The notes beneath the pieces are model-generated. The model saw only the letters and a list, made by a program, of their open reading frames with translations, was not told the DNA's origin and did no database searches. From a virus, in IMG/VR virus record IMGVR_UViG_3300021085_000054, positions 1 through 48,411 of that record: a stretch of 48,411 nt of DNA, one strand, 5' to 3'. Positions 1,735 through 32,213 of this stretch are shown piece after piece. The position numbers were made by a program, and so were the translations under genes. Positions within the stretch are counted from its first letter, which is position 1. Each line of letters opens with the position of its first letter.

Positions 1735-2409
1735 GTGGCGGCTTACTCTTCTTTAGTTAAAGAAGTTTTACCTTACGTACCTTTATGCCCAGACTCTTTA
1801 GTTGAACAAAACATAAGAGCTGCAGCAATAGAGTTCTGCGAAAGATCAAAAGCTTATATTTTAGATATGGACCCGTTTAACACGATTGCGGGTGTGTATG
1901 AATACGACTTTGATATTCCTACTGGAACAGAAGTACATCAAGTTTTGTATATGACCCATGACGGAAAAGACATGGATCCGATAAGCCCTCGTAGCCTAGA
2001 ACTAAACTATCCAGACTGGAGAGATAGAAAAGGCAACCCCCATGTGTATTTACAAAAAACCCCTAGTACATTTTGGATAGTACCTGTAGCAAGTGGCTCT
2101 AAACAAGTTATCGCAAGTGTGGCACTTAAACCTAGTAGGACTTCAAATAATGTAGATACTACTATATCTAATCAATACAGAGACGCTATTATATACGGTG
2201 CTTTATATAGACTTCTTCGTATGCCAAGTAGGGAATGGTCTGACGTAGGCGCAGCTCAAGAATATTTATATCAGTTTAATTTAGAAATAACACAAGCGGA
2301 ACTAAGGGCCCGAGGCGGAGACCTAGGCGTAAAAAGAACAGTTAAGTACAAAGGAATAGGATTACCAAGGAGACGGTATGGAAAGTACGGAAAGGAGATC
2401 GACTACTGA
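1735..2409 (+). CDS. Putative head-tail connector or tail-completion protein
   Basis: A 224-residue protein starting at a GTG. An ATG two bases upstream is in another frame. The start overlaps the previous gene's terminal AAGGTAGGTAG, which provides the ribosome binding site. The N-terminus (VKEVLPYVPLCPDS, then IRAAAIEFCERS) resembles small phage connector proteins with an initial helix pair, and a beta-rich middle follows (FWIVPVAS, KQVIASVALKP). The C-terminus is basic (RRRYGKYGKE). Position between the adaptor and the internal-protein block supports a neck role. I cannot assign a named family with confidence. Confidence 0.6.
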   Translation: MAAYSSLVKEVLPYVPLCPDSLVEQNIRAAAIEFCERSKAYILDMDPFNTIAGVYEYDFDIPTGTEVHQVLYMTHDGKDMDPISPRSLELNYPDWRDRKGNPHVYLQKTPSTFWIVPVASGSKQVIASVALKPSRTSNNVDTTISNQYRDAIIYGALYRLLRMPSREWSDVGAAQEYLYQFNLEITQAELRARGGDLGVKRTVKYKGIGLPRRRYGKYGKEIDY

Positions 2410-6180: not shown

Positions 6181-9100
6181 TGTTGCGGGTAGTCTCGCAG
6201 ATACAGACCCAGTACCAAGTGGGGCAGTAGCAAGTAGCCTAGCTGATGCGCCTGCAGCTCCTGAAATACAACCCTTAGATGACCCGATTAGGCTTTTTAA
6301 AGCAGCCGTAGCTACTGGTGTTTCTAACACAGCAGCTCAAGTTAGTAACTTTAATGCTTCTTTAGCTTCTCTTATGGGTAATGAATATGCCATGCAAGAT
6401 AGCTTAAATGAAGCCCAAAGAATACAAGCTTCTGGTGCTTATTACTTAGCAGATGCAGAAAACTTTGAACAGTTTTTAGATCAACCTACTTTTAGCGGGT
6501 TTATAAATCAGGCAATACAAGCAACAGGACAATTCGTTCCTTCTGCTGTAGCTAGTATAGGACTTGCTATGACAGGCGCTGGTGTTGGTGCGGGAGTAAC
6601 AGCAGCTGTAGGTAGAAAAGTAGGAACAAATGCACTAAAGAAAACTATTATCCCACAAAGCATAGCAGCAGACGCCACTACTAAGAAAGAGGTTCAAACT
6701 GTAATTAACAAATATGTAGGTATACAAAGCGCAAAAGCAAATAATAAAAAGACAGGTTTAACAATGAAACCTGAAGAAATGAAGATGATAGATAATCTTT
6801 ATGCCCATATTCGTAAAAAAAGAATAGGAACAGCTGCTAAGGCAGGGGCTCTTACTGGAGCAGGTTCCCAAGAACAAGTAATGGGACAAGGTATTGCTTT
6901 TGGAACTTATGCAGAACAAGGTATGACAGGAGCAGATTCTGCTTTTAAATCTGGGTTACAGGGTCTTGGGTTTGCTGCAATCGGTTTAGGCAGTGAGGTT
7001 GCTGTAGCTAAATCAGTTGGAAATGTAATTAAATCTAGACAGCCAAAAGGAATTAATACATTTCAAGATGCTCCTATTATGAGTAAAAGAAGTAGGATAG
7101 CCCAGGTTGCAGGAACAACTGCAGTAGCTGAAGGGCTAGCAGAAGCAGGACAAGAAGAATTGTCCGTACAACAAAAATTTAGAATAGACGAAGATTACAC
7201 GAGGTCTATGGCGAACTTAGATAGGGCCAACGCTTTGTTTGCCGGGTTCTTCGGTGGCATAGGCGTAGGTACTGCAATAGGTACACCTTCCGCTATAGCT
7301 GGAAAAAGCTATGATATGACAAAACAAGGTTACGAAATTAGAGCTCAAGCTGATTTTGATGCAAGAGTGGGTACAGTATTACCAGAAAGCAAAGATTCTT
7401 TATTAGATCAGTTTGAAGCTATGGATCTTTCTAGCATAAACAAAGACGCGGTGTGGGTAGTAGAAGCTAACAGAAAAACTATGGGTGAGATAGAGTCAGA
7501 CCTACAGAACAAATACCCTACTATGGAAGTTGTAGACATAAACAAAGTAGGAACCTTGTATACAACCAATCCTGAAAAAGCAGAGTCTTTCGCAAACGTC
7601 ATGTCCTCTAACGTTCTTAACACTGACCTTTTAGATGGATGGTTAGCTAATAATCTTGGGTACACAAGAGCAAGAGCAGCTGGAGACACTATTGCCGTTA
7701 GTGTAGTAAGCCCTAAAGGTAATGTGATATGGGAACAGTCTGTTACAAGAGAGGGAGAAGCAGATGCTATAGCAGCAGGTGAAGCGGTAGCTAATAAAAC
7801 TCCAGGATATGAAGTAAAAAGTAGGCCTTTAGAAGATGTCGTAGGCGAACGTATGCAAGATGAAGGCTTAGATGAAAACGAACAACAAGATTCGTTTATG
7901 AACGAAGAACAAGAATTAGCTAATCTTTATAATATTACTGAAGAACCCACTCCTGTAGAAGAAGGCAGAGGGTCTTTTCTTAACCCAATAACTCCTAGGC
8001 AAAGCAAAAAAAATAAAGCGCGTAAACAAGTTTGGGCTATACCCTCTACAGACATAACTTATGATGGAGGCTTAGTAGAAGAAGCTAAAGCGCTTGTGCC
8101 TGAACAGTTTGAAAGAGAGTTTGAAGATAATGTAAATAGAAAAAGATATTCAGAAAGCTTGTTAAAATCTTTTGTAGCCGAAAATGTAAATGATACTACC
8201 GGTGCTTTTTATAAAATAAATGAAAACACAGATAGGGGTGGGTTTAATTTAATTAAATATAATATGGGCTATCAAGGGGGCGTTAGTCAACCTTCCACTG
8301 TAGATATAACTAAAAGCATAAATCTTGCAAAAAAAAGAGGCTATGGCAGTAGGTTTCAGATAGAAACGCCAGAGTCTAAGGGGCCACAAAACATAGATAT
8401 GCCTACTTTAGTAAATCAAGGCAGAGTGTTAGCTAGGCGCTATAAAGAACCTGCATCTCCAGGAGATTTAGGTAGCGCTTTAAGCGGATTTGCTTTTATT
8501 TTAGGAGCTATGGAAGGTAATTACAGTCTTACCTATGATGGCAAACTAATAAGTGATGAAACTCTTAAAGACCCTGGAGCTTTTATTTATACGAAAAACA
8601 AAGGCAAAGATAAATACACTTTACAGGATTTACAAAGGGGGCAACAAAGTTCGGTTACAACTAAAGAGTTTGACCCTAGCTTTGACCCTAATACAGATAT
8701 ATCATCTCAAGAACAGAATAGAAGTAGAAAAGTAAGTAGGCCTTTAGAAAACGAACAAGGCGAAGTTTTAAGTGGGCCTAATGTAGCAACAGAAGTAACA
8801 GTTGGCCAAGGTAAAGTAGAAGTCGGAGAAACAGAAGGGGCGACAGAACCTACCCCAGATCAAAGAGCAGAAGATGAATATAACAGACGTCTATTTAAGA
8901 ATCCCTATGCTAAAGGTTCAAGTAAACCAGGAGGGCCTAAGCCAGGTATATCTTTTACTAGCACTGTTGAACAACACCTAGACGCTACTTTTATACAAGA
9001 CTTTAAACGTATAGCTGCTACTAAGTTAGGGCTAAATAGATCGTATAAGGTTTTTAGCACTACAGAGGATATTACATCTGAAGCATTAGAAGGCGATACA

Positions 9101-11704: not shown

Positions 11705-12079
11705 ATGGCATATTCAGACACAATAAAATTAGTAGTAGGAGATACTCTCCCAGAACTAACATTTAAGCTAAAAGACAGCAACACTGCAGCATCAGGACAA
11801 ACACTTGATGTAGAAAATGAAACTACTTGGGCTGCTATTGATCTATCAAGTGGAAGCGTTAAATTTCGTATTAGAGAAGTAGGACAAACTACAGTACTAC
11901 AAACAATCACCGCTACCATTACAAATGCAAGCGGGGGCGAATGTGCTTTAACTTTCCCTACAGGAACTTGGACTGCAGCGGGTACGTATGAAGGTGAACT
12001 AGAGTTTACTAAATCAAACGGACAAATCCAAACAGTACAAGACCTAGTGAAGTTTAAGGTTCGTGACGATTTTGATTAA
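11705..12079 (+). CDS. BppU-like (baseplate upper protein N-terminal) beta-sandwich protein
   Basis: A 124-residue all-beta protein. The order GDTLPELTFKL, then VKFRIRE, then GECALTFPTGTW, then AGTYEGELEFT, then the closing VKFKVRDDF is the pattern of the N-terminal domain of lactococcal-type baseplate upper proteins (BppU family), which links receptor-binding proteins to the tail. Here it stands alone as a short gene, not fused to a longer protein. The next gene's ATG overlaps its stop (TAATG). It probably anchors fibres or the repeat protein that follows. Family assignment is from pattern memory. A TATAAT lies just before the start but has no -35 partner. Confidence 0.6.
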   Translation: MAYSDTIKLVVGDTLPELTFKLKDSNTAASGQTLDVENETTWAAIDLSSGSVKFRIREVGQTTVLQTITATITNASGGECALTFPTGTWTAAGTYEGELEFTKSNGQIQTVQDLVKFKVRDDFD

Positions 12080-13506
12080 TGGCCTTTCGTGCAAAACTTA
12101 GTTATGTAGATCTAAAAGCGTCCGTCTCTTTTTCTGAGGTTAGGATAGTAGTATCGCAAGTTGATACTCGCACTAGTCTTAATTTTACTTCTCCTAAAAG
12201 CTCCATACACAGCCAGCTATTACAGACAATAGTTGAATACGTTAACCTTAACTCTTTAGTTAGTTATGTAAATTTATCTGCAGTAGATGTGCTGTTAGAT
12301 GCTGATAGTAAGAACTTATATTTCATACCGCAAAATAACTCGCCTAACGCTGTAACTCTTACAATGTTAGAGGACACAGCACTAGAAGTAGGTAAGTCTC
12401 TAGTTGACACCCCAGTCATACAAGATATTCCAGAACTTCTTGTAGGTAAGACTATTAGCGATTCTTTAGATTTTAGCGAAGTCATAAACATACTAATAAC
12501 ATTCCTACGTGAGTTTGATGATACTTTTGCTTTTACAGATACAACATCTCTATCTGTACAGCCATCATACTCAGACACTTTTAGTTTTACAGATGCTACT
12601 AGTCTTAATTTAAGTAACATATATACAGACACTTTTAGTTTTGCAGATAGTGACTTTAAAGGTATTAACAAAGGTGTATTAGATACTCCTACCCTATCTG
12701 ATATACAAACTGTTAGTTCTGGTATAAACAAAACAGATACTTTTAGTTTTACAGATGCGCCTGCACTTAGTTTCGATGCTCTTTTGTCTACCGATGTAGC
12801 ACCATTATCAGATTTTCCTTCTCTACAACCAGAGTTAAATAAAACAGATAGTTTTGGTATAGGAGATGTATTTAGTCGTGTAGTTAGTTTCTCTAGATCT
12901 TTTGCAGACGCTATATCCCTAGATGACATTGCTTCTGTCAATGACCCCCTACAAACTGACGTAGATTCTGGCAAAACTAACGTTATTGGGTTTGCAGATG
13001 AGCATTCGTACACATTTGCTAAGCTGCTAAGCGACACGTACGGGTTTACAGACCTACCTGCTATAGAGGCTATAAAGCCTTTTAGCGATAGTTTTGCGTT
13101 TGCAGACACAGAAATTTTAAGTTTTACTAAAGGAGTAACAGACACATCGACCTTAACGGATACAGAAGAGCTTGACCTAGGTTTAGGTAAAACAGACAAC
13201 TTTAATTTTACGGACGCGGCTAATTTAGCTGTAGCTACTATACACGCAGATAATTTTAGTTTTACTGATAATGAGACACTCGCTTTTACAAAAGGTCTAT
13301 CAGACACTCCGACACTAAGTGATACGCAGTCTATATCCCAGAACCTTGGTAAATCTGATATCTTTTCGGTTTCTGAAGCATTATCGTTAACTCTTGGCAA
13401 TTCCCATACAGATAGTGCTACAATATCAGAAGTTATAAATATTGTTACCGTTCAAAGCCATAGCGTTTTTAACGCAGCGGGACTAAATATCGGGACACTA
13501 AACTAG
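12079..13506 (+). CDS. Virion-associated protein built of 18-residue repeats (putative beta-solenoid)
   Basis: A 475-residue protein, cysteine-free as far as I can see. A leading domain of about 105 residues is followed by some 19 copies of a degenerate unit near the consensus D-[TS]-F-x-F-[TA]-D-x-x-x-L. Units start at residues 110, 128, 148, 166, 184, 202, 220, 239, 257, 271, 301, 319, 337, 355, 373, 391, 409, 427 and 445, so from 301 the period is exactly 18. An 18-residue period suits one coil of a beta-solenoid, making an elongated spike or fibre plausible. It overlaps the BppU-like gene by one base and precedes the fibre genes. Calcium binding by the many aspartates is possible but untested. 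No named family is recognised. Confidence 0.7.
   Translation: MAFRAKLSYVDLKASVSFSEVRIVVSQVDTRTSLNFTSPKSSIHSQLLQTIVEYVNLNSLVSYVNLSAVDVLLDADSKNLYFIPQNNSPNAVTLTMLEDTALEVGKSLVDTPVIQDIPELLVGKTISDSLDFSEVINILITFLREFDDTFAFTDTTSLSVQPSYSDTFSFTDATSLNLSNIYTDTFSFADSDFKGINKGVLDTPTLSDIQTVSSGINKTDTFSFTDAPALSFDALLSTDVAPLSDFPSLQPELNKTDSFGIGDVFSRVVSFSRSFADAISLDDIASVNDPLQTDVDSGKTNVIGFADEHSYTFAKLLSDTYGFTDLPAIEAIKPFSDSFAFADTEILSFTKGVTDTSTLTDTEELDLGLGKTDNFNFTDAANLAVATIHADNFSFTDNETLAFTKGLSDTPTLSDTQSISQNLGKSDIFSVSEALSLTLGNSHTDSATISEVINIVTVQSHSVFNAAGLNIGTLN
12406..13464 (+). repeat. 54-base-period degenerate coding repeats (18 residues each)
   Basis: This is the DNA footprint of the repeat units in the 475-residue protein. 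Adjacent copies share segments such as ACACTTTTAGTTTTACAGAT (around 12577 and 12736) with changes in between. Most units are 54 bases apart; irregular spacings occur near the units at residues 148, 239, 271 and 301. Divergence shows that the array is old and under protein-level selection, not a recent duplication. Confidence 0.8.
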
Positions 13507-13514
13507 GAGAAACT

Positions 13515-13940
13515 ATGATAAACGACGGTTTAATTTTAAAAGGTAAGTTAGCTATCGCTTTAAATGGCGAAACAGTTAAAGAAGTTGACAACCTTGTTGT
13601 TACCGCAGGTAAAGGGTTTGTAGCCTCAAGAATGAAAGATGCTACTACTACTGCAATGACACATATGGCTATTGGAACAGGATCTACTGCAGCAGCAGCT
13701 AGTAATACTGCTTTAGGAAGTCAGTCAGCTAGAACTACTTTAACTTCTACAACTGTTAGCGGAGCGGATATTACTTACGTAGATACTTTTCCAGCAGGAA
13801 CAGGTACAGGAGCTATAACAGAAGCAGGCTTATTTAATGCTTCATCAAGCGGTACTATGCTTTGCAGAACTGTATTTCAAGTTGTAAACAAAGGCGCGTC
13901 TGACTCAATGACAATTACCTGGACTGTAACAGTTTCTTAA
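13515..13940 (+). CDS. Small fibre- or tail-associated structural protein
   Basis: A 141-residue protein with AGGAGA four bases before its ATG. It contains MTHMAIGTGSTAAAASNTAL, a TFPAGTGTGAITEAGLFN segment and a terminal VVNKGASDSMTITWTVTVS. This pattern occurs repeatedly in tail-fibre or tail-associated proteins of many phages: a threonine/glycine-rich beta domain with an A-I-T-E-A-G-L-F motif. It is likely a structural adaptor or short fibre at the tail tip. It lies directly upstream of the first giant fibre. Function is inferred from family and neighbours. Confidence 0.65.
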   Translation: MINDGLILKGKLAIALNGETVKEVDNLVVTAGKGFVASRMKDATTTAMTHMAIGTGSTAAAASNTALGSQSARTTLTSTTVSGADITYVDTFPAGTGTGAITEAGLFNASSSGTMLCRTVFQVVNKGASDSMTITWTVTVS

Positions 13941-13957: not shown

Positions 13958-16900
13958 GTGGCAGTTGTTTTTAAGAACAATGCAAAAACAACCCTTGCAT
14001 CTAGCCTAACATCTTCGGCTACTTCGGTAACAGTCGCGGATGGTAGCGCTTTTCCTTCCCTTTCTGGTGGCGATACATTTTTTTGTACATTTGATAATGG
14101 CACTAATGTAGAGGTTGTTAAAGTTACTGCTAGAAGTAGTAACACGCTTACAATTGTCAGGGCCCAGGACGACACTACTGCACGTGCATTTTCTACCGGT
14201 GCTGTAGCAGAACTAAGACTTACCGCCGGGATCCTAAACTTATTCTCCCAAACAGGCGTAGCCGTAACCGATGAAATAGAAGCCTACCTAGATGCCAACG
14301 GCACAACCTTCCCAGACAATGTAAAAGCTCAGTTTGGTGCAGGTAATGATTTACAGATTTACCATGATGGTACAAATTCATATCTTAAAAATAATAATGG
14401 TGATTTATACATTAGACAAAATACAAATGATAAAGACGTTGTTATACAAAGCGACAATGGTAGTGGCGGTCTATCAGCTTACTTTAGAGCAGATGGCTCT
14501 ACTGGTGAAACTATCTTGTATCACTATGGTTCACAAAAAATTTCAACAAAATCCTCAGGCATAGACGTAACAGGAACAGTAACTACTGATGGTATGACAT
14601 CATCACAAAATATAACTGTTAACTCAGCTTCAGGAAGTGTAGATGCAAGACTTGCATTTAACAATTCAGTTAAAAATGCTTGGATAGGTATTCCTTCATG
14701 GGATGACGATTCATTAAGAATATATGGTACTAGCCCAACATCAGGAAATACTAATGAACCTGCGGCAATGTATAGAGATGGTGCTTGGAGTTTTTGGACT
14801 GACTATAACAATACATCAGGAAATGGCTCTACATCTACAGCATTATTTATATCTACTGGTGGTTCTGTAAATGTTGGTAGAGGTGATATTCAAATAAATG
14901 GCACAACTGTTATAAATTCAGCAAGAAACTTTACAGCCTATGGAAGATTAACTTTTAGTTACAACAGTCATTATTTTGAAGCAGGTACAAACTCAGTATC
15001 TTTTAAAAATAGTAGTGGGAGTTCATATTGGACTTCAAATAACACAGTCTTTAATTTTAATACTGACTTAACATTAAATAATGCACACATTAGACATAAC
15101 AATACAACTTTTGGAACTTATGATTGGTTAGTAAATCAAGCAGATAGTGGTAAATTTATTGTAACTGTTTCAGGCACAGGCGGTGCTGAAATGGAACTAT
15201 CATCAGATGGCTCTGATTATACTAATGCTATTTTGAATGTAGGTGGTCAAAAAGTTTTAACACAATCAGCAGGTATTAATCTCAATGGTGACTTAGGATT
15301 TAACGATGGCTATAAAGCTAAGTTTGGTGCAGGTAATGATTTACAAATTTATCATAATGGTATTACTAGCAATAGTAATATAGAAAATTACACAGGTGGT
15401 CTTTACATCACAAATTATGCTGATGACCAAGACATTGTATTTAGAAGTGATGATGGTAGTGGTGGTGTAGCAGAATATTTTAGGCTAGATGGAGGTAATG
15501 GTTATCTTATAACTAGCAAACATAATCAACATTTAGACAATGTTAAGTCTATGTATGGTGGCTCTAACGATTTACAAATTTACCATGATGGTTCTAACTC
15601 AAATTCTTTTGTTAAAAATAGTACTGGCATACTAAATATAGCATCTGATACTATTCATTTAGAAAGAGGTGATGGAACCGAAGTCTATCTTACAGCTTTC
15701 GCCAATGGTTCTGTATATCTTTATCACAATAATAATCCAAAACTACAAACAACCTCAACAGGCATAGACGTAACAGGAAACTTAATTGCTGATGGGGGAA
15801 CTATAGATGGAACATTTATTGTAGATGGTGGAACAGGTGTAAGTTCAACAGGTGTTTTAAATGTCAGACAAAGTGGTGATGGTCATGGTGATGGTATAGC
15901 TATAACAAGTAGTCATGCGACAAGTCATAGAATATGGAAAAATGCTTCAGGTGTATTAAATATAGGTAGTAGCAGTAATACAAACGCTTTTCAACAAGAT
16001 TTAACAGGGAATATCACAATAGAAGGAACAGTTACAACAAGTGATGCACTAAAAATAGTTAATAGCACAACATCTAACATATCTTTAATGGAAGATGGAA
16101 GTTCAGGTGCAGATATAAAATATATTGGCAGTAATAATAATTTTGTAATTGCTACAGGTACAGGTGGTGCTGGTTCACAAACACAAAGATTATCTATACA
16201 AAGAGATACAGGAGACATATCCTTCTATGAAGACACAGGCACAACCGCTAAATTCTTTTGGGATTCCAGTACTGAAAGACTAGGAATAGGAACAACTACA
16301 CCAGATACCGGGCTTGATATAGAAACGACTACCGGTATAAGAATAAAACAAAATGATCAAATAGATAGTCCTCCAGGTAATTCAGAAAACTTTTATCAAG
16401 GACTAGCATTTATTAATCAAAGTAGTAATACTCAGGCGTATAGTATGGGCTATGGCTTTGGAGGTCGGTTTGCATTAAACTATTTTGATGGTACAGCTAC
16501 ATATTCAAGAATTATGTCTGTTTCAAATTCAGGTAACTTAGCAGTTGAAGGAAGTGTTGCTACAGGGTCTTTTGTATTACCAGATGCTACAGGAACATCA
16601 GGGCAGTTATTAAAATGGCCTAGTTCCGGAACTACTTTGGAGTGGGCAGACGATACAGGAACAACTATAAATAATAATGCTAATAATAGAATTATAACAG
16701 GTAGTTCTACAGCAAATACATTAGAAGCTGAATCTACACTTACTTGGGATGGATCTACTTTAACAGCAAATACAGAAAATGCTGAACTGCAATTAGTTGA
16801 TACATCTTCAGGCAATACAACAAGCATTTTATCTAATAATTTTGATACTACTATAAAAGCAGATGGTCGTATATTTTTTAGAGCAGGTGGTTCAACTGAC

Positions 16901-19099
16901 AATATTATTCAAATATCTTCAGGTGGTGATGTTTCTTTCTATGAGGAGACAGGTACAACTCAAGGTTTCTTTTGGGATGCATCAACTGAGAGATTGGGTA
17001 TTGGAACGACTTCGCCTGATTATGCTCTTGACATAAGAGACGATTCAAATATTCAATTAAAAGTTTCATCTACTACTACAACCAATAACGCAAGAATAAC
17101 GTATGCTATTAACAATCAACAAAAATGGAATCATGGCGTACAGGCATCTGATAACTCATTTACTTTTTATGATATTGTTAATAATATTAGCCCATTTAAA
17201 ATAGAACCAGGTGCAGCAACTAACACCCTTGTAGTAGATTCTAATTCTAGGGTGGGTATTGGAACTAATAATCCAAGTAACCGATTAACAGTATTAGGTG
17301 CAGACTCTATAGCTATTGATGACTACATAGTACATTATAACGATGGTAATACTAAAATTGGTTTTCCATCAAATGACAAGTTTAAGATAGCAGTAGCAGG
17401 TAGCGATAAAGTTACTGTAACTTCTACTGGTTTGGGAATCGGAACAACTTCGCCAGATAGTTTACTACATGTAGGTGGAGCATCAACTGATAAAACTTAT
17501 ATAGGAACTTACTTAGAACAGGGCGGAGTAGTTTTAAGCAGAGCTCAAGGTAATGAATGTCTCTGGGTAGACCGTTGGGGGTCTGCTTCTACTACGGGAA
17601 CTATTACAAATCCTTTACAAGTATTTAGGCCTGAAGATAACTATGCATCGTTTTCTTCTTCCAATGGAACTAATAATCCTGTACAGTGGACAATTGATGC
17701 AACTTTTAGTGCAACTTCAAATGTAAACGCTAGAAGAGTTGCAATATTTGCTCATAGCGGTTTTACCTCTGATCTTACAATCGAAATAAAGAATAGCTCA
17801 GGGGTTTGGGAAACTGCATACGATGATTCCTATACTTTTGCTGGAAGCCGATGGCACTTATTTAGTATTGATAATGTTATTAGCTACCCAGGGGATTGGA
17901 GTATACAAGGAATAAGAGTAACTATTGATAACTATGGCACATCAAACAGATATATAGGTCAAATCGGTATTACAAATGTAAAAAATAGTAATACTTCTCC
18001 TTGGATTACAAAAGGTGGAGGTATAATATATGACAATTCAATTCTTGCTTTTGGTAATAGCTCAGACTTACAAATATACCATGATGGTAGTAATAGTTAT
18101 ATACACGATAATGGTACTGGTAACTTAAAAGTACGTACAAGTTCTTTTAATCTAATGAACGCTGCAAATAGCGAACTTATGATTAATGCTAGTGAAAATG
18201 GTGCAGTAGAACTTTACTATGACGGACAAGAAAGATTAAGTACTAGCTCAGCAGGAGTTAATATCCCTACTAATAAAGAATTAAGATTTTACGAAGCCAG
18301 TGGGTCGGAGTATACAGGTATAAAAGGTAGATCTTCTATCGGTACTGGGGATAGTATAACATATCAACTTCCTCCTTCTGCTCCTGCTAATAGTGGCTCT
18401 GTTCTTATTTGTACAACTGCAGGAGAAATGACTTGGAGTTCTAATACTATTAGTACTTATACAGACGGACAGACAGATAGAGTTATAACTGGATCAGGAA
18501 CTAGTGGAGCAGTTGGTCAGTTTGGTCTTACATATAATAAAAATACTGGACTAAAAATAGAGAATATGGGAAGTCCTGTTAGTGCATCAGGTACTTTAAC
18601 TATAGGACAATCAACCAATGGCAGTGGGTCTAGTTTAATTGTTATGGATTCAGCGACACAAGGTGCAATTAGGTTTAAGGATGGGAGTACTACAGAAGCA
18701 AGTATACTAATATCCCCTAATGTGAACAACGGCCCTCTTAAGATAAGTGCAAATAATGGAGTAAGATTACAAGATATTTACGGGATTGATACAACAACAA
18801 CAACAACAACTCAATCGACAGCAACAGAAATACATACATTTTCTGCGGGAACTTTCCGTTCAGCAAGAATCACAATACAGATAAAAAATAATACAGATAG
18901 TACTTACCATACTACAGAATTACTAGCAGTTCATGATGGTACAAATGTTAAATTTGTAGAGTATGGATCAATATTTACAGGGGACGCAGAAGCAACTTTT
19001 GACATGTCAATAGTTAGTGGAAACGTAAAATTAATAGCTACCCCAGCTACAACAGATAATATGACATTTAAAGTAGTATGTCACAGCATAACAATTTAA
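13958..19099 (+). CDS. Giant tail fibre protein A (1713 residues)
   Basis: Starts at GTG 13958, with AAGGAG (13946-13951) six bases upstream. Residues 1-95 form a typical phage fibre head domain (SSATSVTVADGSAFPSL, then an N-T-L-T-I-V-R-A-Q-D segment), probably the virion attachment part. The shaft is a series of repeats: F-G-x-G-x-D-L-Q-I-Y-H-D modules near 14333, 15323, 15554 and 18050; FYE[DE]TGTT...FWD-ST-ERLGIGTT modules near 16225 and 16935; and further L-G-I-G-T-T-S-P-D units. Residues about 1190-1360 include a jelly-roll-like region, suggesting a carbohydrate-binding domain. The last 130 residues form a separate beta-rich tip (TFSAGTFRSARITIQIKN). Likely role: reversible or specific host binding. 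It shares a module with fibre B. Confidence 0.85.
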   Translation: MAVVFKNNAKTTLASSLTSSATSVTVADGSAFPSLSGGDTFFCTFDNGTNVEVVKVTARSSNTLTIVRAQDDTTARAFSTGAVAELRLTAGILNLFSQTGVAVTDEIEAYLDANGTTFPDNVKAQFGAGNDLQIYHDGTNSYLKNNNGDLYIRQNTNDKDVVIQSDNGSGGLSAYFRADGSTGETILYHYGSQKISTKSSGIDVTGTVTTDGMTSSQNITVNSASGSVDARLAFNNSVKNAWIGIPSWDDDSLRIYGTSPTSGNTNEPAAMYRDGAWSFWTDYNNTSGNGSTSTALFISTGGSVNVGRGDIQINGTTVINSARNFTAYGRLTFSYNSHYFEAGTNSVSFKNSSGSSYWTSNNTVFNFNTDLTLNNAHIRHNNTTFGTYDWLVNQADSGKFIVTVSGTGGAEMELSSDGSDYTNAILNVGGQKVLTQSAGINLNGDLGFNDGYKAKFGAGNDLQIYHNGITSNSNIENYTGGLYITNYADDQDIVFRSDDGSGGVAEYFRLDGGNGYLITSKHNQHLDNVKSMYGGSNDLQIYHDGSNSNSFVKNSTGILNIASDTIHLERGDGTEVYLTAFANGSVYLYHNNNPKLQTTSTGIDVTGNLIADGGTIDGTFIVDGGTGVSSTGVLNVRQSGDGHGDGIAITSSHATSHRIWKNASGVLNIGSSSNTNAFQQDLTGNITIEGTVTTSDALKIVNSTTSNISLMEDGSSGADIKYIGSNNNFVIATGTGGAGSQTQRLSIQRDTGDISFYEDTGTTAKFFWDSSTERLGIGTTTPDTGLDIETTTGIRIKQNDQIDSPPGNSENFYQGLAFINQSSNTQAYSMGYGFGGRFALNYFDGTATYSRIMSVSNSGNLAVEGSVATGSFVLPDATGTSGQLLKWPSSGTTLEWADDTGTTINNNANNRIITGSSTANTLEAESTLTWDGSTLTANTENAELQLVDTSSGNTTSILSNNFDTTIKADGRIFFRAGGSTDNIIQISSGGDVSFYEETGTTQGFFWDASTERLGIGTTSPDYALDIRDDSNIQLKVSSTTTTNNARITYAINNQQKWNHGVQASDNSFTFYDIVNNISPFKIEPGAATNTLVVDSNSRVGIGTNNPSNRLTVLGADSIAIDDYIVHYNDGNTKIGFPSNDKFKIAVAGSDKVTVTSTGLGIGTTSPDSLLHVGGASTDKTYIGTYLEQGGVVLSRAQGNECLWVDRWGSASTTGTITNPLQVFRPEDNYASFSSSNGTNNPVQWTIDATFSATSNVNARRVAIFAHSGFTSDLTIEIKNSSGVWETAYDDSYTFAGSRWHLFSIDNVISYPGDWSIQGIRVTIDNYGTSNRYIGQIGITNVKNSNTSPWITKGGGIIYDNSILAFGNSSDLQIYHDGSNSYIHDNGTGNLKVRTSSFNLMNAANSELMINASENGAVELYYDGQERLSTSSAGVNIPTNKELRFYEASGSEYTGIKGRSSIGTGDSITYQLPPSAPANSGSVLICTTAGEMTWSSNTISTYTDGQTDRVITGSGTSGAVGQFGLTYNKNTGLKIENMGSPVSASGTLTIGQSTNGSGSSLIVMDSATQGAIRFKDGSTTEASILISPNVNNGPLKISANNGVRLQDIYGIDTTTTTTTQSTATEIHTFSAGTFRSARITIQIKNNTDSTYHTTELLAVHDGTNVKFVEYGSIFTGDAEATFDMSIVSGNVKLIATPATTDNMTFKVVCHSITI
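14333..14575 (+). repeat. Fibre shaft module, copy in fibre A
   Basis: An 81-codon module from FGAGNDLQIYHDGTNSY to the VTG of IDVTG. It has the same length and order of motifs as bases 23513-23755 in fibre B: D-L-Q-I-Y-H-D, N-D-K-D, I-Q-S-D, G-S-G-G-L, A-D-G-S, H-Y-G-S, V-T-G. A shorter diverged relative lies at about 15323-15540. Confidence 0.85.
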
Positions 19100-24254: not shown

Positions 24255-26742
24255 CAGCACACAGAATGGAAACTTTAATGCAAGTTCAACTTGGGGAGGA
24301 AGCACGCCCGGAGATGGAGATACTCTTACTATTAACCATACTGTAACACTTACAGGATCAAATGAGCCTACAAACGGTTTTGGAGATATTAAAGTAGCAA
24401 ATAATGGAATACTTACAAATGCAGACAATGCAACACTAAAAATGAATGGAAATATAAGAGTAGAAACTTCAAGTAGTTCTGCACCTGCAACTGTACATTT
24501 TAAAGATAACTTAACAATATCATGGAATGGAGCAAACGGAGATAATCATGGGTTCCAGGTTGATAACTCAGCAGGTTCTCATTGTATTATTGAAGGAGAT
24601 AACCCTACAGGATATTGTACAACAACAACTGCGGATACTGATGGAAATGTATGTACTCATACTGTAGCAGATGGTTCATTATATGGTGTTGGAGACTGGG
24701 TACAAATTTATCAAAATAATTACACTTCAACTTCAACAGAAAATGACGGAACCAGATACGACGATGAAGGATTCTGGATTCATGATATTAGCGGTAACAC
24801 GCTATACACCCGTGACTACGTTGGACCTGAAAACTCTACGGTCACTTCTGCAAGTGGAACTAAACTTTTAGTGTCTAATGCGAAGGTATTCCGTGAGGGA
24901 ATGCAAATTATTTTTGGGACAGGGTCAAATAGAAATATAAAAACAATATCAAGTATAAACTACACTAATAATGCTATTGTATTAAACTCATCAGTTACTG
25001 GAAGTGTAGTTGGGACAACAGTTTATAGAGCCGGGTCACTTAAACCGCACCCGTCAGGTTCAAAAGTTAGAAAGATGGCAACAGTAACAACAGCAGAATC
25101 AGCTAGTGGCGCATCAAGTATTACAGTTTCAAGCACAAGTGGAATGTTTGTGGGAGCCAGGATATTTGTTGAAAGAAGATCAGAAGCTTCAGGTAGCACC
25201 GATCATGCAGATCCTAGTAATGGTGATGTTGCGAACGGTACAGGTAGTTTTGATTATATTATTTCAGGCATAAGTGGAAATGTTGTAACATTATCAACTG
25301 TATTAAATTACAAAGTAGTAGCTACCTCTTTAGTTTCGGTACTTAATAGATCTATTGTATTTGATACTGTAGCTACTGATGGGTCTGATTTTGCTCATTT
25401 TTATTGCGAACACAGAAGTGGATATGATAGATGTATAGTATTAAAGGATATACAATTTCATAACTGGGGCGATAGTGATACTAATACACGAACTGGAGTT
25501 GTATTAAGAGGACAAAATAAAACACAAAGCCCTCCTGTAACGTATACACAAACAATACCAGTTTTACACAGAGGTAGTTGGTGTGAAGGTTTAACAGTAA
25601 GACATTATCCAGGGCATGAAAGAGATTGGGGAAGTATTTGGTTATATGATTGCAGAGCAACAGTAGCAAGAGGTTGTATCTCACTTTATGGAGATGATGG
25701 TATAGCTGTTCATTATGAGCCTTTTCAAGGTGCTATAGGTAATTTGTCAGCAGGGCAAAGAAGTTTTGGAATGAGATTTGAAGGCTCCTCAGACTTGTTT
25801 GATATTTCCTATAATTATGTTAGTCGTTCTAATAATAGATTACGAGTTACTCAGTATGATGAAGGACTTGGAGGACATATGCACAATTGTATTATAGACG
25901 CAACTGACTATGCAAGTGCTGGGTGGCAAAACTCCCATCCAGGAAATATATGGAGATGCAAATTTACCGGCGTAAGGTATGGAACAATAACAGAATCTGC
26001 TATAGAGTCAAAAGCAGGATTCTTAGATTGTTTTATACAAAGCCTCAGCGGGTATCAAACAGTAACAAATGATAGACCCGTAGACTCAAATCAAGGCGGA
26101 CAATATAGACAATCACACTATAGTAGAGGAGGGGGTTCTACAGCATTAGTCAGCGTAGAACACCAACATGAAATAGATAGAGTCCATGTTTACGGATATT
26201 ATTGGGAAGCTTACTGGAATGAAGATGAAGATGCGTGGCATTTTTTAAGATATAAATCAGGAGATAATAGCCCTTCAATGGGAGAAACTATTTACATACC
26301 CGCAAATACAACAGGTAGATTTACAGTAAAATGTAAAGCAGTCTCAGGATTTAGTGGGACAAGACCTTTTGGTTTTGCAATAGATACTAAAAGCAATTAT
26401 TCAGAGAATGCATTAGGATTTACAGCAACAACTAATAGACCGCTTCGAGGAAAAAAGTACACTACACAATTTACTAGTGCCTTTGACTCTGCCTATGAAG
26501 AAGTACAAATAACAATTAATCCCGAACCTTTTGGTAGGTATTATAAAATAGGGGTAATGTCAAATAATAGAAATGCAACTGAAGGATTTTTTATTAAAGA
26601 CTTTGATTTTTATTTAGATGGTAGCGTAAATGAACGACAATTTTTACAAGGAAATGGAGGAAGTGTAAATCCTCATGCAATACCGCAATTTAGAAACAGT
26701 TTTACACAACAGAAAAAAAGACTAGGAGGAAGACTTAAATGA
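24241..26742 (+). CDS. Putative tail spike with G8-like N-terminus and right-handed beta-helix
   Basis: An 833-residue protein with GAGGAG seven bases before ATG. Residues 8-45 (NGNFNASSTWGGSTPGDGDT followed by LTINHTVTLTG) follow the G8-domain pattern: G-x-W/F, T-W-G-G, P-G-x-G-D, I-x-x-x-V-T-L. The middle (residues about 340-620) has serial beta-strands and asparagine/glycine turns, such as HFYCEHRSGYDRC, WLYDCRATVARGCISLYG and GDDGIAVHYEPF near 484, as in parallel beta-helix lyases and hydrolases. The C-terminal 170 residues look like a beta-sandwich. G8 plus beta-helix occurs in hyaluronan-degrading CEMIP-type proteins. A surface polysaccharide binding or degrading spike is therefore attractive, but no catalytic residues can be assigned. 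ATGA links it to the next fibre. Confidence 0.65.
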   Translation: MAAYSSTQNGNFNASSTWGGSTPGDGDTLTINHTVTLTGSNEPTNGFGDIKVANNGILTNADNATLKMNGNIRVETSSSSAPATVHFKDNLTISWNGANGDNHGFQVDNSAGSHCIIEGDNPTGYCTTTTADTDGNVCTHTVADGSLYGVGDWVQIYQNNYTSTSTENDGTRYDDEGFWIHDISGNTLYTRDYVGPENSTVTSASGTKLLVSNAKVFREGMQIIFGTGSNRNIKTISSINYTNNAIVLNSSVTGSVVGTTVYRAGSLKPHPSGSKVRKMATVTTAESASGASSITVSSTSGMFVGARIFVERRSEASGSTDHADPSNGDVANGTGSFDYIISGISGNVVTLSTVLNYKVVATSLVSVLNRSIVFDTVATDGSDFAHFYCEHRSGYDRCIVLKDIQFHNWGDSDTNTRTGVVLRGQNKTQSPPVTYTQTIPVLHRGSWCEGLTVRHYPGHERDWGSIWLYDCRATVARGCISLYGDDGIAVHYEPFQGAIGNLSAGQRSFGMRFEGSSDLFDISYNYVSRSNNRLRVTQYDEGLGGHMHNCIIDATDYASAGWQNSHPGNIWRCKFTGVRYGTITESAIESKAGFLDCFIQSLSGYQTVTNDRPVDSNQGGQYRQSHYSRGGGSTALVSVEHQHEIDRVHVYGYYWEAYWNEDEDAWHFLRYKSGDNSPSMGETIYIPANTTGRFTVKCKAVSGFSGTRPFGFAIDTKSNYSENALGFTATTNRPLRGKKYTTQFTSAFDSAYEEVQITINPEPFGRYYKIGVMSNNRNATEGFFIKDFDFYLDGSVNERQFLQGNGGSVNPHAIPQFRNSFTQQKKRLGGRLK

Positions 26743-29700
26743 GCAATGATGTACTAATAACCCCGGCATCACGAAAAATTGAGTTCAAAGATTCATCAGC
26801 AAGTATCGATGCAAAAATTGAAACAGATAGTAGTGGTAATTTAATAATAACTAACCCAGGAGGCGATATATCCTTAGGAGATACTAATGCGGACATTTTT
26901 ATAGGAGATGGCGTTAATAATATTGATATTGTCTTTGAACAAAATGGAGAAATAAGAGGAACTAGTGGAGTTACTTTAACACTTGGTGCTTCTAATAGTA
27001 ATGTTGTTATGGCTACAACTTTAAACCTAAATAGTAATGATTTAACAAATGTAGGCAGTTTAACAGTTAATAATTTAACAGTCAATGGAACAACAACAAC
27101 TGTATCGTCAGTTAATACAACTATTACTGATTCTTTAATTGAATTAAATTCTGGATTAACAGGAGCAAACTCAAAAGATATCGGATTTATATTTGAACGT
27201 GGTAGTACAGGACATAATGCTGCATTCTTTTGGGACGAAAGTAGTGATAGATTTAGATTTATTACAACTACAAATACTGGTTCAGCAACTACAATCGGGG
27301 ATAATATTACAGAAGGCACTATACAGGCAGGAAGTTTCTTTGGTAATGGTGCAAACCTTACTTCATTAAATGGAACTAATATTTCGTCTGGAACAGTTGC
27401 TGAAGCAAGAATAGCTAGCCTAGCAGCTTCAAAGATTACTTCAGGTACGTTTGCGGATGCAAGAATACCAAGTCTCGCAGCTTCAAAGACTACTTCAGGT
27501 ACGTTTGCGGATGCAAGAATACCAAGTCTCGCAGCTTCAAAGACTACTTCAGGTACGTTTGCTGACGCAAGAATACCAAGTCTCGCAGCTTCAAAAATTA
27601 CATCAGGAGAACTTAGTAGTGCAAGACTGCCGGCCTATTCTGCCCCAGTAAGGGCAGGGGAATTAAGTAACTCTCAAGACTTAAATGATCTTATAGCAGC
27701 TAACGCAGGTTTCTATTATCAGACTTCTAATGCTGATACAACCGGAAATAATTATCCAAATGCACATGCCGGTTCTTTAATAGTGCAGAAATCTGCAGGA
27801 AATGCAACTCAGTTATATCAAACATATAGCGCAACCGACACAAGATTATATTTTAGATCAAACTATAATGCAGGTTATGGTACTTGGCAAAGAGCTTTTG
27901 CAGACAACTATCATCCAAATGCTGATAAATTAACAAGTGCAGTAAATATTAACGGAGTAGCTTTTGATGGTTCAGGAAGTATTACAGTAGCAGACAGTAC
28001 TAAACTACCACTTGCTGGTGGCACAATGACTGGCAATATTAACATGGACGGTAATGAACTTAACAATGTTGAATTAATTAAGTTCAAAAATAAAGAACTA
28101 ACTGATTTTTCTGGCTCAATGCAGATGATACTTGATGCAAATGACGCTGATAGTAATGTTCCAGGTCACGGCGATCATGCCAGTGACTATCCAATGGGCA
28201 TTTACTTTACAGGAGACGCTGATCAATCTACAACAACTTTAGGAAACGGTCTTGTCAAAGTATGGCACACAGGTCATTTTAATAAAGCACACATTGATTA
28301 TTTTGTAGGATTATATAATTCAGGCGTAACAACAACTGAATACGACTATCTAGACGGTGTAACAAGTAATATACAAACACAACTCGACAATAAATTAAGT
28401 TCCTTTGATATAACAACTCAAACCGACTCAAAATATCTAAGAAGTGATGTGAGTGATACAATGACAGGTGCATTGTATATTGAGGCTGATAACCAAGCGG
28501 GCGGTGCTTTAAGAATTGAAGCAAATCAAACAAATCCTGATAATGATATGTACTTTGCGCAAGAAATCTATTCTACTCTTTCAGGTAGCACTGCTACTAC
28601 AGGAGATAGAGAGCAGGGAGGTATTTACATGGATATTAATTCCACCGCTACAGGTGGTGATACCTCCAATGAGCATAGAGCTTATGGTATGTACGTTGAT
28701 CTTGATAGTACAGGTGATGCAGATTTAGTATATGGTGTTTATGCAGATGCTACTGCAACTCCAACGACAGGTACAACAAGTAATGTCTTTGGTGGTTATT
28801 TTAGGGCTGAAGATAATGGTGGTGCTGGTTCAACTACTACTCTTTACGGTGTTCAGGCCGTAGCCTATAGTGATAACGCAACTTCAGATGTAAATTCAAT
28901 GTATGCAGGTTATTTTAAGACTTTCAATGCGGCAGATAGTGCAAGTATTCCCACAGCAAGGGGTGTATATGGTGAAGTAGAGATTACAACAGGTAGTGGA
29001 GACATATATGGAAATACTTATGTATTTGAATCTCAATATGATAATAATACAAGTGCTGCTCCAACACATACTGCTGCATTATATTACGGAAACTATGCAG
29101 GAACATTACCTACCACAGCTTTAGGAGTTTATATTGTAGATCCTGTTCCTAACTCATTTGCTGGAAGTGTAAGAACTGGACTTGGTACGACTAGCTTGTC
29201 TGCTTATGGATTTATTGGTGATTTAAATACTGGTATGTATAGTCCAGCTAACCACGAATTAGGATTTACTACAAATGGCACGCAACGATTAAAACTAACT
29301 ACTTCTGAGCTTGTTATTAATGATGCCTCCAATGATTATAATTTCAGAGTAGAATCAAATAATAACGATGCAATGATATTTGTAGACGGTGGCACCGATA
29401 AAGTCTCTATAGGTACTAGTGATACAGGCAGCATGGATGGTAGATTTACAGTACAAGGCGCAAATATTGGTAATACTGATGGAGATACTCAATTACATGC
29501 CACCATTGCAGGTTCAAGACATCATCTTGATTTTGAAGAAGAAAGAACAGCATCTACATCTGATTGGCAAAATACAACATACAGATTGGGTATGAGAGTT
29601 GATACAACTGATCACCAAGCTATTGAGTTTGTTTCTGATGGAAGTTCTGCTGAACACATTGATATTAAAACTGGAAATAGAGTATTCAATACAAGATTTA

Positions 29701-32213
29701 CACATGATGGCAAAGTTGGTATCGGAACATCAACTCCAGGTAATAAACTTAGTGTTGCTAGGTCTCAATCAGATACTTTTTCTAACACTCATTTAGGCTT
29801 AAAGGCCACGTCTACTACAAATACAACTGGAAGAACTGGTATTTCAATGGCAACCTCTACTGTTAATAATTTTGGTGTCACTTTAAACGCAATGAGAAAA
29901 GGTACTGACGGAGTTCCTACGTTTGGAATTAACATGCACAACAACAGTGCTGGTGGACTTGAAGCTTTCACTGTTAAAGCCGATGGGAATGTTGGTATAG
30001 GAATTAGCGACCCTAAAACAGAGTTGCACATACTAGGAGCTTCGGGAAATGCTCAAGCTACAACAGTTACAATTGGTGGTGATGGCACAAACGGAAATCA
30101 TACCTCTAAACTAGAATTTTCAGAAGCAAGTAACGGCAGTGGAGGTATTTTGAATTATGGGTTTTCGCTTTTAGCCGATGGTAATAGTAGCAATAATTTC
30201 CTTATAAGAAACCATAATAATAGCACTAGTGGTAATATTGCAATTTGTATTGATCGTGCAACAGGATTTGTTGGAATAGGAACAGGATCAGGCTCGGCTT
30301 CAAGTAAATTAACTGTTAAACAAAATATGACAAATGGAGCAACAACTGCATTTACTGCTCCTCATTTAAAACTTCAAGCAAATAATACAACTGATACTAC
30401 TGGCTTTGTAGGAATGACATTTGATACAAGTACCACTGCTAATTACGGGTGGTCGTACGGCGCTTTAAGAGACGATGGTGGAAATGGAGATATGGTATGG
30501 CGTTTCCATAGTGCTAGCGCCCAGGGAAATGAAAGATTTAGAATTATGAGTACTGGCAACGTAGGAATTGGAGATGGTTCTCCAGACTTCAAATTAGCTA
30601 TTAGAACTCCAGCTATTCCAAGTGGTTCAACTTATGCATGGCCTCTAGACTTATCAAGGCCAGGTACAGACTCTAGAGGCTTAACTTTTGGGGTGGGATC
30701 AGCTGGAGGTACACATGTAATGGCGGCACATAATGGTGATGTTGGTATTGGTCAAACATTTGGAAGTGACAGTAATGGATTACCACAATTTTATGAAACA
30801 TTAAGTATAACACATGACGGAACTGCTTCTATAGGTAGAGTTGGAATTGGAGATACTGACCCAATTGCTAAACTAGAAGTAGCAGGCGATAAGTATGTTT
30901 TAACTAATTCGGGACAAGCAAGAGGTGGTATACATTTAAGGCCTACTTCAACGCCTGGGTTAAATGAATATGGTGGCGCTATATCTTTTAGTTGTAATGG
31001 TTCAGGTTCATCTGCTATAGCTGCTGTAAATGATGGGGGCGCTGACAGTGACGGTAATGGTTTAGCCTTTATAACACACCCATCAGGAACAGGCTCTGCA
31101 GATGCTGTTGAGCAAATGAGATTAAATGAAATTGGTAATCTAGGACTTGGTGATCCTAGTGCCCCATATAAACTTACAGTTAATGCCGGTCTGAGCGATT
31201 GGCCAGGATTTTTTAAATCTACAGATAATAAAGCCGGTATTATAATTGCCGATGATGATACTACAACTTACTTTGGAGCAGAAAATTCAAGAGCTTTCAT
31301 GGGTATGCAGTCAGGTGTTAGTGTAAATAACTTAAATATAAATGCTACAGGTCAGGTAGGCTTAGGAACAGGTAGTCCTGGTTATAAACTTCACGTTGTA
31401 GAATCAACTGAAAATGCTGGAGCAATTAATATAGAGGATGGAACAAGCTGGTTGAGACTTGTTCCTAACTTAGGTGGAGGTGGATTTAATCCAATGTCAG
31501 TAGCTGGAGATATAGGATTAATATTTTCAAATGATAATGATGGTAGTACGGATAGTACATCCAACGGGCTATTAATTGCATCTCACTCTACTAGTGGTTA
31601 TGGAATAAAAATAGTAGAGAATGGTAAAGTTGGTATTAAAACTGGAGCACCAACCTATACATTAGATGTTAATGGTGACATGGGAGTGAATGAGTACATA
31701 TACCATAATGATGATGATAATACCTATCTAAGATTCTTAGCAGATAGAGTAGTAATTGCAGCTGGAGGGCGTTGGGTAATAGACTGCGATGAAGGAACTG
31801 ATCCTGATATTCTAAAGCTTATGAATGATGCACAAAGAGCATATTCTGACGGCACTTTCCATGCAAAAGGAGATATCATAGCGTACTCTACCACTACTAC
31901 TTCTGATAGAAGATTGAAGAAAAATATACAACCTTTAGAAAATTCACTTGAAAAAGTACAAAAGCTACAAGGTGTTTCTTTTGATTGGAAAGATGAGGAC
32001 AAAGGAAGTTCTATAGGTTTTATAGCACAAGACTTTGAAAAAGAATTACCAGACTTAATCAAAGAAGTAAGATCGTTTGAGGATAAAGACGATACTATTA
32101 AAACAATTAACTATGGAAATACAGTAGCTTTACTTGTTGAAGCTATGAAAGAGCAACAAGAACAAATAAAAGAACTTCAAAAACAAGTTCAAGATTTAAC
32201 TAATCAAAAATAA
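26739..32213 (+). CDS. Giant tail fibre protein C with C-terminal S74 intramolecular chaperone
   Basis: An 1824-residue protein beginning at an ATGA overlap. Residues 1-200 form the attachment and early shaft. Residues about 212-300 contain tandem 18-residue units (SGTFADARIPSLAASK). Then come LAGGTMTGNINMDG, a motif common in phage fibres, and many V-G-I-G-T shaft units. The C-terminal about 103 residues are a peptidase S74 (endosialidase-type) chaperone: S1722-D1723-R-R-L-K1727-K-N-I, then VSFDWKDEDKGSSIGFIAQD, then a terminal helix rich in Gln and Glu. In the endosialidase family this domain trimerises the fibre and then cuts itself off at the Ser-Asp, using a Ser and a Lys five residues later. 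Both are present here. The promoter of the next cassette begins four bases after the stop. Confidence 0.88.
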   Translation: MSNDVLITPASRKIEFKDSSASIDAKIETDSSGNLIITNPGGDISLGDTNADIFIGDGVNNIDIVFEQNGEIRGTSGVTLTLGASNSNVVMATTLNLNSNDLTNVGSLTVNNLTVNGTTTTVSSVNTTITDSLIELNSGLTGANSKDIGFIFERGSTGHNAAFFWDESSDRFRFITTTNTGSATTIGDNITEGTIQAGSFFGNGANLTSLNGTNISSGTVAEARIASLAASKITSGTFADARIPSLAASKTTSGTFADARIPSLAASKTTSGTFADARIPSLAASKITSGELSSARLPAYSAPVRAGELSNSQDLNDLIAANAGFYYQTSNADTTGNNYPNAHAGSLIVQKSAGNATQLYQTYSATDTRLYFRSNYNAGYGTWQRAFADNYHPNADKLTSAVNINGVAFDGSGSITVADSTKLPLAGGTMTGNINMDGNELNNVELIKFKNKELTDFSGSMQMILDANDADSNVPGHGDHASDYPMGIYFTGDADQSTTTLGNGLVKVWHTGHFNKAHIDYFVGLYNSGVTTTEYDYLDGVTSNIQTQLDNKLSSFDITTQTDSKYLRSDVSDTMTGALYIEADNQAGGALRIEANQTNPDNDMYFAQEIYSTLSGSTATTGDREQGGIYMDINSTATGGDTSNEHRAYGMYVDLDSTGDADLVYGVYADATATPTTGTTSNVFGGYFRAEDNGGAGSTTTLYGVQAVAYSDNATSDVNSMYAGYFKTFNAADSASIPTARGVYGEVEITTGSGDIYGNTYVFESQYDNNTSAAPTHTAALYYGNYAGTLPTTALGVYIVDPVPNSFAGSVRTGLGTTSLSAYGFIGDLNTGMYSPANHELGFTTNGTQRLKLTTSELVINDASNDYNFRVESNNNDAMIFVDGGTDKVSIGTSDTGSMDGRFTVQGANIGNTDGDTQLHATIAGSRHHLDFEEERTASTSDWQNTTYRLGMRVDTTDHQAIEFVSDGSSAEHIDIKTGNRVFNTRFTHDGKVGIGTSTPGNKLSVARSQSDTFSNTHLGLKATSTTNTTGRTGISMATSTVNNFGVTLNAMRKGTDGVPTFGINMHNNSAGGLEAFTVKADGNVGIGISDPKTELHILGASGNAQATTVTIGGDGTNGNHTSKLEFSEASNGSGGILNYGFSLLADGNSSNNFLIRNHNNSTSGNIAICIDRATGFVGIGTGSGSASSKLTVKQNMTNGATTAFTAPHLKLQANNTTDTTGFVGMTFDTSTTANYGWSYGALRDDGGNGDMVWRFHSASAQGNERFRIMSTGNVGIGDGSPDFKLAIRTPAIPSGSTYAWPLDLSRPGTDSRGLTFGVGSAGGTHVMAAHNGDVGIGQTFGSDSNGLPQFYETLSITHDGTASIGRVGIGDTDPIAKLEVAGDKYVLTNSGQARGGIHLRPTSTPGLNEYGGAISFSCNGSGSSAIAAVNDGGADSDGNGLAFITHPSGTGSADAVEQMRLNEIGNLGLGDPSAPYKLTVNAGLSDWPGFFKSTDNKAGIIIADDDTTTYFGAENSRAFMGMQSGVSVNNLNINATGQVGLGTGSPGYKLHVVESTENAGAINIEDGTSWLRLVPNLGGGGFNPMSVAGDIGLIFSNDNDGSTDSTSNGLLIASHSTSGYGIKIVENGKVGIKTGAPTYTLDVNGDMGVNEYIYHNDDDNTYLRFLADRVVIAAGGRWVIDCDEGTDPDILKLMNDAQRAYSDGTFHAKGDIIAYSTTTTSDRRLKKNIQPLENSLEKVQKLQGVSFDWKDEDKGSSIGFIAQDFEKELPDLIKEVRSFEDKDDTIKTINYGNTVALLVEAMKEQQEQIKELQKQVQDLTNQK
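27426..27587 (+). repeat. Three near-identical 54-bp tandem repeats inside fibre C
   Basis: Units at 27426-27479, 27480-27533 and 27534-27587 differ at only a few bases, each encoding an 18-residue unit of the type ASK-TSGTFADARIPSLA. Diverged units flank them on both sides (from about 27372, and 27588-27630). The near identity points to recent tandem duplication, and to a site where unit number could change by slippage or recombination without breaking the frame. Confidence 0.9.

Follow-up and report, generated by a model that had tools for sequence, protein, structure and literature searches.

The marine phage genome examined here encodes, at positions 12079–13506 of the plus strand of the window (the whole 48,411-base IMG/VR virus record), a 475-residue protein made of about 19 units with an 18-residue period. 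On balance this protein is probably, if by no means certainly, the bead-binding string, or “rope,” in a tail-proximal beaded fibre of a podovirus resembling SU10 and GP4. The position of the gene suggests that its product is a virion protein. Its N-terminal region, probably together with a BppU_N-like protein encoded just upstream, would tie the string to the virion. In each 18-residue unit, acidic turns would flank two short segments, F-x-F and L-x-L, that are prone to form strands, and the unit would dock one protomer of the adjacent 141-residue gp80-like protein, perhaps by lending a strand to the bead. The number of units would then determine both the number of beads and the length of the fibre. 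At full extension (∼0.33 nm for each residue) the 19 units would reach roughly 110 nm, a value obtained by arithmetic and not by measurement.

Periodicity and units of the repeat protein

The protein is rich in serine and threonine. Its self-identity at a lag of 18 residues is 91, compared with 36.8 in shuffled sequences (z 9.5; range 9.5–10.7), and harmonics of the period appear at lags 36 and 54. A strict form of the unit motif, D[TSNI][FPYAS]x[FLIV][TASG][DE], occurs 14 times, with a spacing of exactly 18 at residues 148–220 and 319–445. A position-specific profile of 24.5 bits, built on 219 units taken from more distantly related phages, locates 15 units where 0.06 would be expected in shuffles; these start at residues 128, 148, 166, 184, 202, 220, 257, 319, 337, 355, 373, 391, 409, 427, and 445. 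Four degenerate units, recognized by eye at residues 110, 239, 277, and 301, bring the total to 19. The layout of the unit is approximately K/G-x-x-[ST]-D-[ST]-[FVA]-[ST]-[FLIVM]-[ST]-[DE]-x-x-x-[LI]-x-[LFV]-x.

A first-pass annotation of this DNA, which placed the repeats at 12406–13464 (residues 110–462), had described about 19 units of 18 residues with a core of this type in a protein devoid of cysteine, and the profile, the lag analysis, and the translation, which contains no cysteine, bear out that description. Its statement that the units lie exactly 18 residues apart over long runs holds for two runs, of five and eight units, and fails elsewhere, where the gaps are 18, 19, 20, and 24 residues. 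The first exact run spans residues 143–232 (12505–12774) and the second residues 314–457 (13018–13449). Between them lies a non-repeat block, residues 265–301 (12871–12981), with the near-invariant alignment columns RVVSFxRSF..SLDDIAS..DPLQTD..KTN; no other part of the protein is as well conserved. The units are preceded by a non-unit region, residues 1–109 (12079–12405), and followed by a tail, NAAGLNIGTLN (13471–13503), which alignment with relatives shows to be conserved, Asn465, Asn470, and Asn475 being invariant across 71 relatives. All of these segments are read from the plus strand.

At the DNA level the units have diverged, and Tandem Repeats Finder reports no tandem repeat in the region 12079–13506. 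Comparison with the two closest relatives reveals 82 third-position changes versus 29–31 second-position changes, and the reading frame is thus that of a gene under constraint at the protein level. A 378-residue open reading frame on the minus strand (12264–13400) was set aside because relatives conserve the plus-strand reading of the gene that it overlaps in antisense. The sole DNA tandem repeat in the window lies at 27397–27607 (3.9 copies of 54 bases), within an 1824-residue open reading frame (26739–32213). It encodes a different 18-residue unit, FADARIPSLAASKTTSGT, unlike the units of the protein discussed here.

The absence of a named family for the unit, also noted in the first-pass annotation, is upheld by the searches. 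Pfam assigns no family to the window protein and gives weak, scattered matches among its 71 relatives. The nameless family phrog_12240 matches residues 147–285 (E 2.2e-4) and 20 of the 71 relatives (best 8.6e-11); the family is itself annotated as being of unknown function and is absent from the six reference phages examined. When the repeat protein and two relatives were compared by tblastn with 50,697 phage records, no match emerged, a result to which low-complexity masking may contribute. No relative was found in the bacterial and archaeal genomes scanned, no match in the PDB by sequence with either the protein or its alignment, and no 18-residue phage repeat or rope protein in a search of the literature.

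The gene trio and the gp80-like neighbour

The repeat gene is the middle member of a trio. Upstream, at 11705–12079 (plus strand), lies the gene for a 124-residue BppU_N-like protein with an Ig-type fold, whose match to PF10651 (25.6 bits) exceeds the gathering cut-off of 23.1 and so confirms the BppU-like neighbour that had been proposed; it is probably the anchor of the module. Downstream, at 13515–13940 (plus strand), lies the gene for the 141-residue protein, the proposed bead. A 1713-residue protein with PHROG tail fibre matches (13958–19099, plus strand) follows the module. In several relatives the downstream fibre reading frames contain long collagen-like Gly-x-y stretches (GPTGPTGAKGQKGE), for example in L149 from position 8582 (597 residues) and in L075 from 5198 (1033 residues).

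Loci gathered by searching with the two neighbour genes retain the order BppU_N-like gene, repeat gene, 141-residue gene in 144 cases. Across these loci the flanking proteins are constant in size while the repeat protein varies between 97 and 800 residues in length and between 5 and 22 in number of units, a combination that favours a string of adjustable length. The 97-residue member, L162, consists of the N-terminal region shared with the window protein and the Asn-containing C-terminal tail, and has no units at all; the units thus seem to elaborate on a smaller core, and this member counts in favour of the string. Close relatives differ by block deletions within the unit region, and one of the repeat proteins, that of L090, is 144 residues shorter than the window protein, which is the length of eight units. 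Sequence identity is 72–86% for the 141-residue protein and mostly 26–41% for the repeat protein, and this disparity between a conserved bead and a variable string also supports the proposal. The 124-residue protein is 53–94% conserved among marine loci.

Some members of the family carry additional features. One to three cupredoxin-like domains are inserted in some repeat proteins (L080:2588–4990, L070:2917–4992, L108:5375–7117); at least one such insert is present in 32 of 142 distinct repeat reading frames. The inserts retain a type 1 copper-like pattern, HPxRF ... YYCxxHxxM, and their match to Pfam Copper-bind is weak. In L161, from position 5375 onward, the place of the repeat gene is occupied by that of a 1666-residue protein with many 18-residue units after an N-terminal part that appears, by eye, cohesin/dockerin-like. 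A Lys/Arg-rich reading frame of 96–98 residues, which resembles no fibre part, intervenes between the BppU_N-like and repeat genes at L103:5375–5665, L070:2620–2916, and L067:1507–1797.

The identity of the 141-residue protein bears directly on the proposed role of its neighbour. It matches PHROG 5417 (8e-30), and 17 of 27 members of its family match the Pfam model Gp80, “Podophage GP4 fiber I protein,” at best with 2.3e-4, which is below the Pfam cut-off. Alignment of the two families by hhalign gives E 2.5e-5 at a probability of 75%. These comparisons suggest a distant relationship between the 141-residue protein and gp80, which forms the beads of fibre I in podophage GP4. A full member of the Gp80 family, BcepMigl gp29 (149 bits), is close to chain a of PDB entry 8jou, which is present in ten copies. 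The distance of this relationship, with family matches short of the cut-off, counts against the string, as does the finding that the best PDB match of the 141-residue profile is better than that to gp80: it is to a “Baseplate hub” (9h4p_BD, E 2.7e-8, in two tandem stretches). Some relatives also match a tail-collar fibre domain. These matches imply that the bead fold has other roles as well and occurs inside other tail proteins, and the 141-residue protein might be a single-copy collar adaptor instead of a bead.

The remainder of the genome is informative about the type of virion. Besides a family A DNA polymerase and a ribonucleotide reductase, it encodes a major head protein of the Phage_capsid_3 family and an adaptor of SU10 type. 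The tail adaptor (SU10_adaptor; 1735–2409, plus strand) matches PF24175 (E 3.2e-12) and PDB 8jov chain G, “gp81 of phage GP4” (E 2.1e-19), and is thus of the GP4 type; it is ∼30% identical to BcepMigl gp30. To judge from this adaptor, the phage groups with the SU10/GP4/Bcep22-like short-tailed phages. The apparent gp80 relationship of the 141-residue family and the gp81-type adaptor together argue for a fibre resembling that of GP4.

Short-period neighbours of gp80 relatives elsewhere

Genes with short periods recur beside gp80 relatives in phages whose kinship with that of the window is only distant. The period is 18 in EBPR siphovirus gp36 (z 8.8), Aeromonas phiA008 (6.0), and Achromobacter CF418P1 (4.3). 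It is 20 in BcepIL02, CSP3, and POI1126 (z 7.1–7.7), OH (5.6), and PBC5 (4.4), and more weakly in BcepMigl, phiM5, Atu_ph08, and Itty13. The phages listed are not fully independent of one another, several of the gp80 relatives being close kin. When twelve reference loci were scanned in their entirety, six reading frames scored z ≥ 5 at a lag of 14–25 residues, and four of the six are genes adjacent to gp80 relatives. This recurrence supports the string. Two observations weigh on the other side. No periodic neighbour is present beside the gp80 relatives of Venkman, ctXG6705, Mvi-JY20, X1, and Lietuvens, and the rope chain looked for in the PDB by sequence was not found. In addition, homology between the 18- and 20-residue repeat families is not detectable by hhalign (E 0.28, probability 0.2%); the link between them is therefore one of period and gene company and not of demonstrated descent.

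A further comparison comes from Alishewanella phage LSH1. Three of its virion proteins are an 8JOU-like dimer, a protein with an Ig fold, and gp34, parts of which resisted folding by AlphaFold (PMC13243795). The counterparts of gp34 in Slicko01 and Slickus01 behave likewise, and the cause of the poor folding was left unexplained by the authors (PMC13243795). Were the unfoldable stretches strings that carry gp80-like beads, a period would be expected in them, and this prediction was checked in Alishewanella phage Slicko01. The candidate counterpart of gp34, an 1843-residue reading frame, has a period of 20 (z 8.5 overall, 10.5 in the best stretch), with units such as DKSTFDVSDIASVLSEFQIQ whose layout is close to that of the window unit. 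The next gene but one is Gp80-like (E 0.0036). The product of the intervening 107-residue gene shows no homology to the BppU_N-like protein of the window. The outcome in Slicko01 is a point in favour of the string.

More tentatively, and with a greater chance of being wrong than right, it may be suggested that these systems are instances of a widespread module composed of an Ig-type anchor, a string of tandem units, and a gp80-type bead. Each 18- to 20-residue unit would recruit one bead protomer, and the number of units would be a genetically encoded ruler of fibre length; unrelated unit types would serve in different phages, and extra domains, for example of the copper type, would lie between beads. 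The proposal that the repeat protein is a string gives a testable role to nameless phage proteins that predictors cannot fold alone, and offers an answer to the puzzle, raised in 2026, of poorly predictable stretches beside an 8JOU-like, or gp80-type, protein (PMC13243795). If it is true, bead number and fibre length could be predicted from sequence alone for many uncultured marine phages.

Predicted fold, alternative explanations, and known systems

Modelling of the full-length protein by AlphaFold2 with 71 relatives yields no fold (pLDDT 38.7). By itself the proposed string would have no fixed fold, which would explain the failure of the monomer model, and we count that failure in its favour. 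A second model, favourably constructed from the eight-unit run with 33 in-register segments, is of moderate confidence (pLDDT 66.8, pTM 0.54; the five models range from 33 to 67) and is all-β, with two short strands per unit, at F-x-F and L-x-L. Its moderate confidence in isolation speaks against the string. A Foldseek search of this model against the PDB and BFVD gave no significant match. Since a forced register can itself favour stacked models, the eight-unit model is weak evidence for the strands and none for a solenoid.

The first-pass annotation had raised the possibility of a solenoid along which aspartates could form a metal ladder, which would here be a regular monomeric β-solenoid with stacked turns. 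Eighteen residues would suit a two-strand turn, and the eight-unit model has two strands in each unit, yet neither the full-length protein nor the eight units produced a confident stacked-turn fold, and the bias of a forced register applies here too. An aspartate in every turn is not what the family displays: the second acidic position is occupied by 986 Glu and 510 Asp, and the first by Asp in ∼81% and Glu in ∼16% of cases. This mixture does not suggest a conserved Asp–metal ladder, and the unit lacks a glycine-rich calcium-turn signature. A metal-laddered solenoid is therefore very improbable.

The main rival to the string is a homotrimeric β shaft, such as a triple β-spiral or interlocked hairpins, which the BppU_N-like protein would anchor and the 141-residue protein would cap or join to the distal fibre. 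Two short strands per unit with alternating hydrophobic residues and a neighbourhood of tail fibre genes would be in keeping with such a shaft, and obligate trimers, too, typically fail to model as monomers. Nevertheless no match to any shaft family was found in Pfam or the PDB, and a shaft leaves unexplained why repeat genes of differing type and period adjoin gp80 relatives; we regard it as unlikely. It is also conceivable, and still less probable, that the protein is a flexible, largely disordered spacer, made of degenerate units without a specific partner, that only sets the distance between anchor and fibre. Low model confidence, the abundance of serine and threonine, large variation in length at low identity, the unit-less member, and the domain inserts of some members would all fit a spacer. 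What it fails to account for is the persistence of a 24.5-bit unit pattern with alternating hydrophobic positions in an exact 18-residue register, and a disordered linker would hardly be expected to have the hydrophobic pairs F-x-F and L-x-L.

If the repeat protein is indeed a string, the nearest precedent is fibre I of the Ralstonia podophage GP4, in which gp80 dimers are reportedly linked by an elongated rope protein. Chain g of 8JOU is described in GP4 as a dimer and as a fibril that joins an adhesin to the tail nozzle collar (PMC13243795). The window resembles the GP4 system (gp80 beads, PDB 8jou/8jov) in having a homologous gp81-type adaptor and a gp80-like gene, apparently a remote homologue, that adjoins a gene with a short-period repeat (lag 18). 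It differs in the repeat itself, which has 18-residue units with D-x5-[DE] acids where the relatives of GP4 have ∼20-residue Gly/Ala units; in gene order, the repeat preceding the bead in the window and following it in the GP4 type; and in the addition of the BppU_N-like gene. The long tail fibre of SU10 (PMC9509320) was considered as a counterpart and rejected, because no equivalent of the 18-residue units is described there.

The three-protein “extra structural module” of LSH1, gp34–gp36, and its Slicko01 counterpart resemble the window trio in combining an Ig-fold protein, an 8JOU-like dimer, and unfoldable stretches (PMC13243795), and the 20-residue repeats of Slicko01 stand beside a Gp80-like gene as in the window layout; there, however, the repeat protein also has other domains fused to it. 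The neck fibre of the Anabaena myophage A-1(L), formed by gp82–gp81–gp80, is a chain of ∼16 beads about 100 nm long (PMC10966104). Like the proposed fibre it is beaded, and it lies near the head–tail junction; its length is similar to the ∼110 nm computed for the extended units. However, it needs no string, since its gp81 trimers attach directly to one another, head to tail (PMC10966104), and its gp80 is a terminal bead, not the gp80 of GP4. As the repeat protein has no detectable homology to the repeat proteins of GP4's relatives, it is placed with the GP4 system only as probably working like it and not as a member of the same protein family. On the most likely reading, the window system is a variant of the GP4-type beaded fibre.
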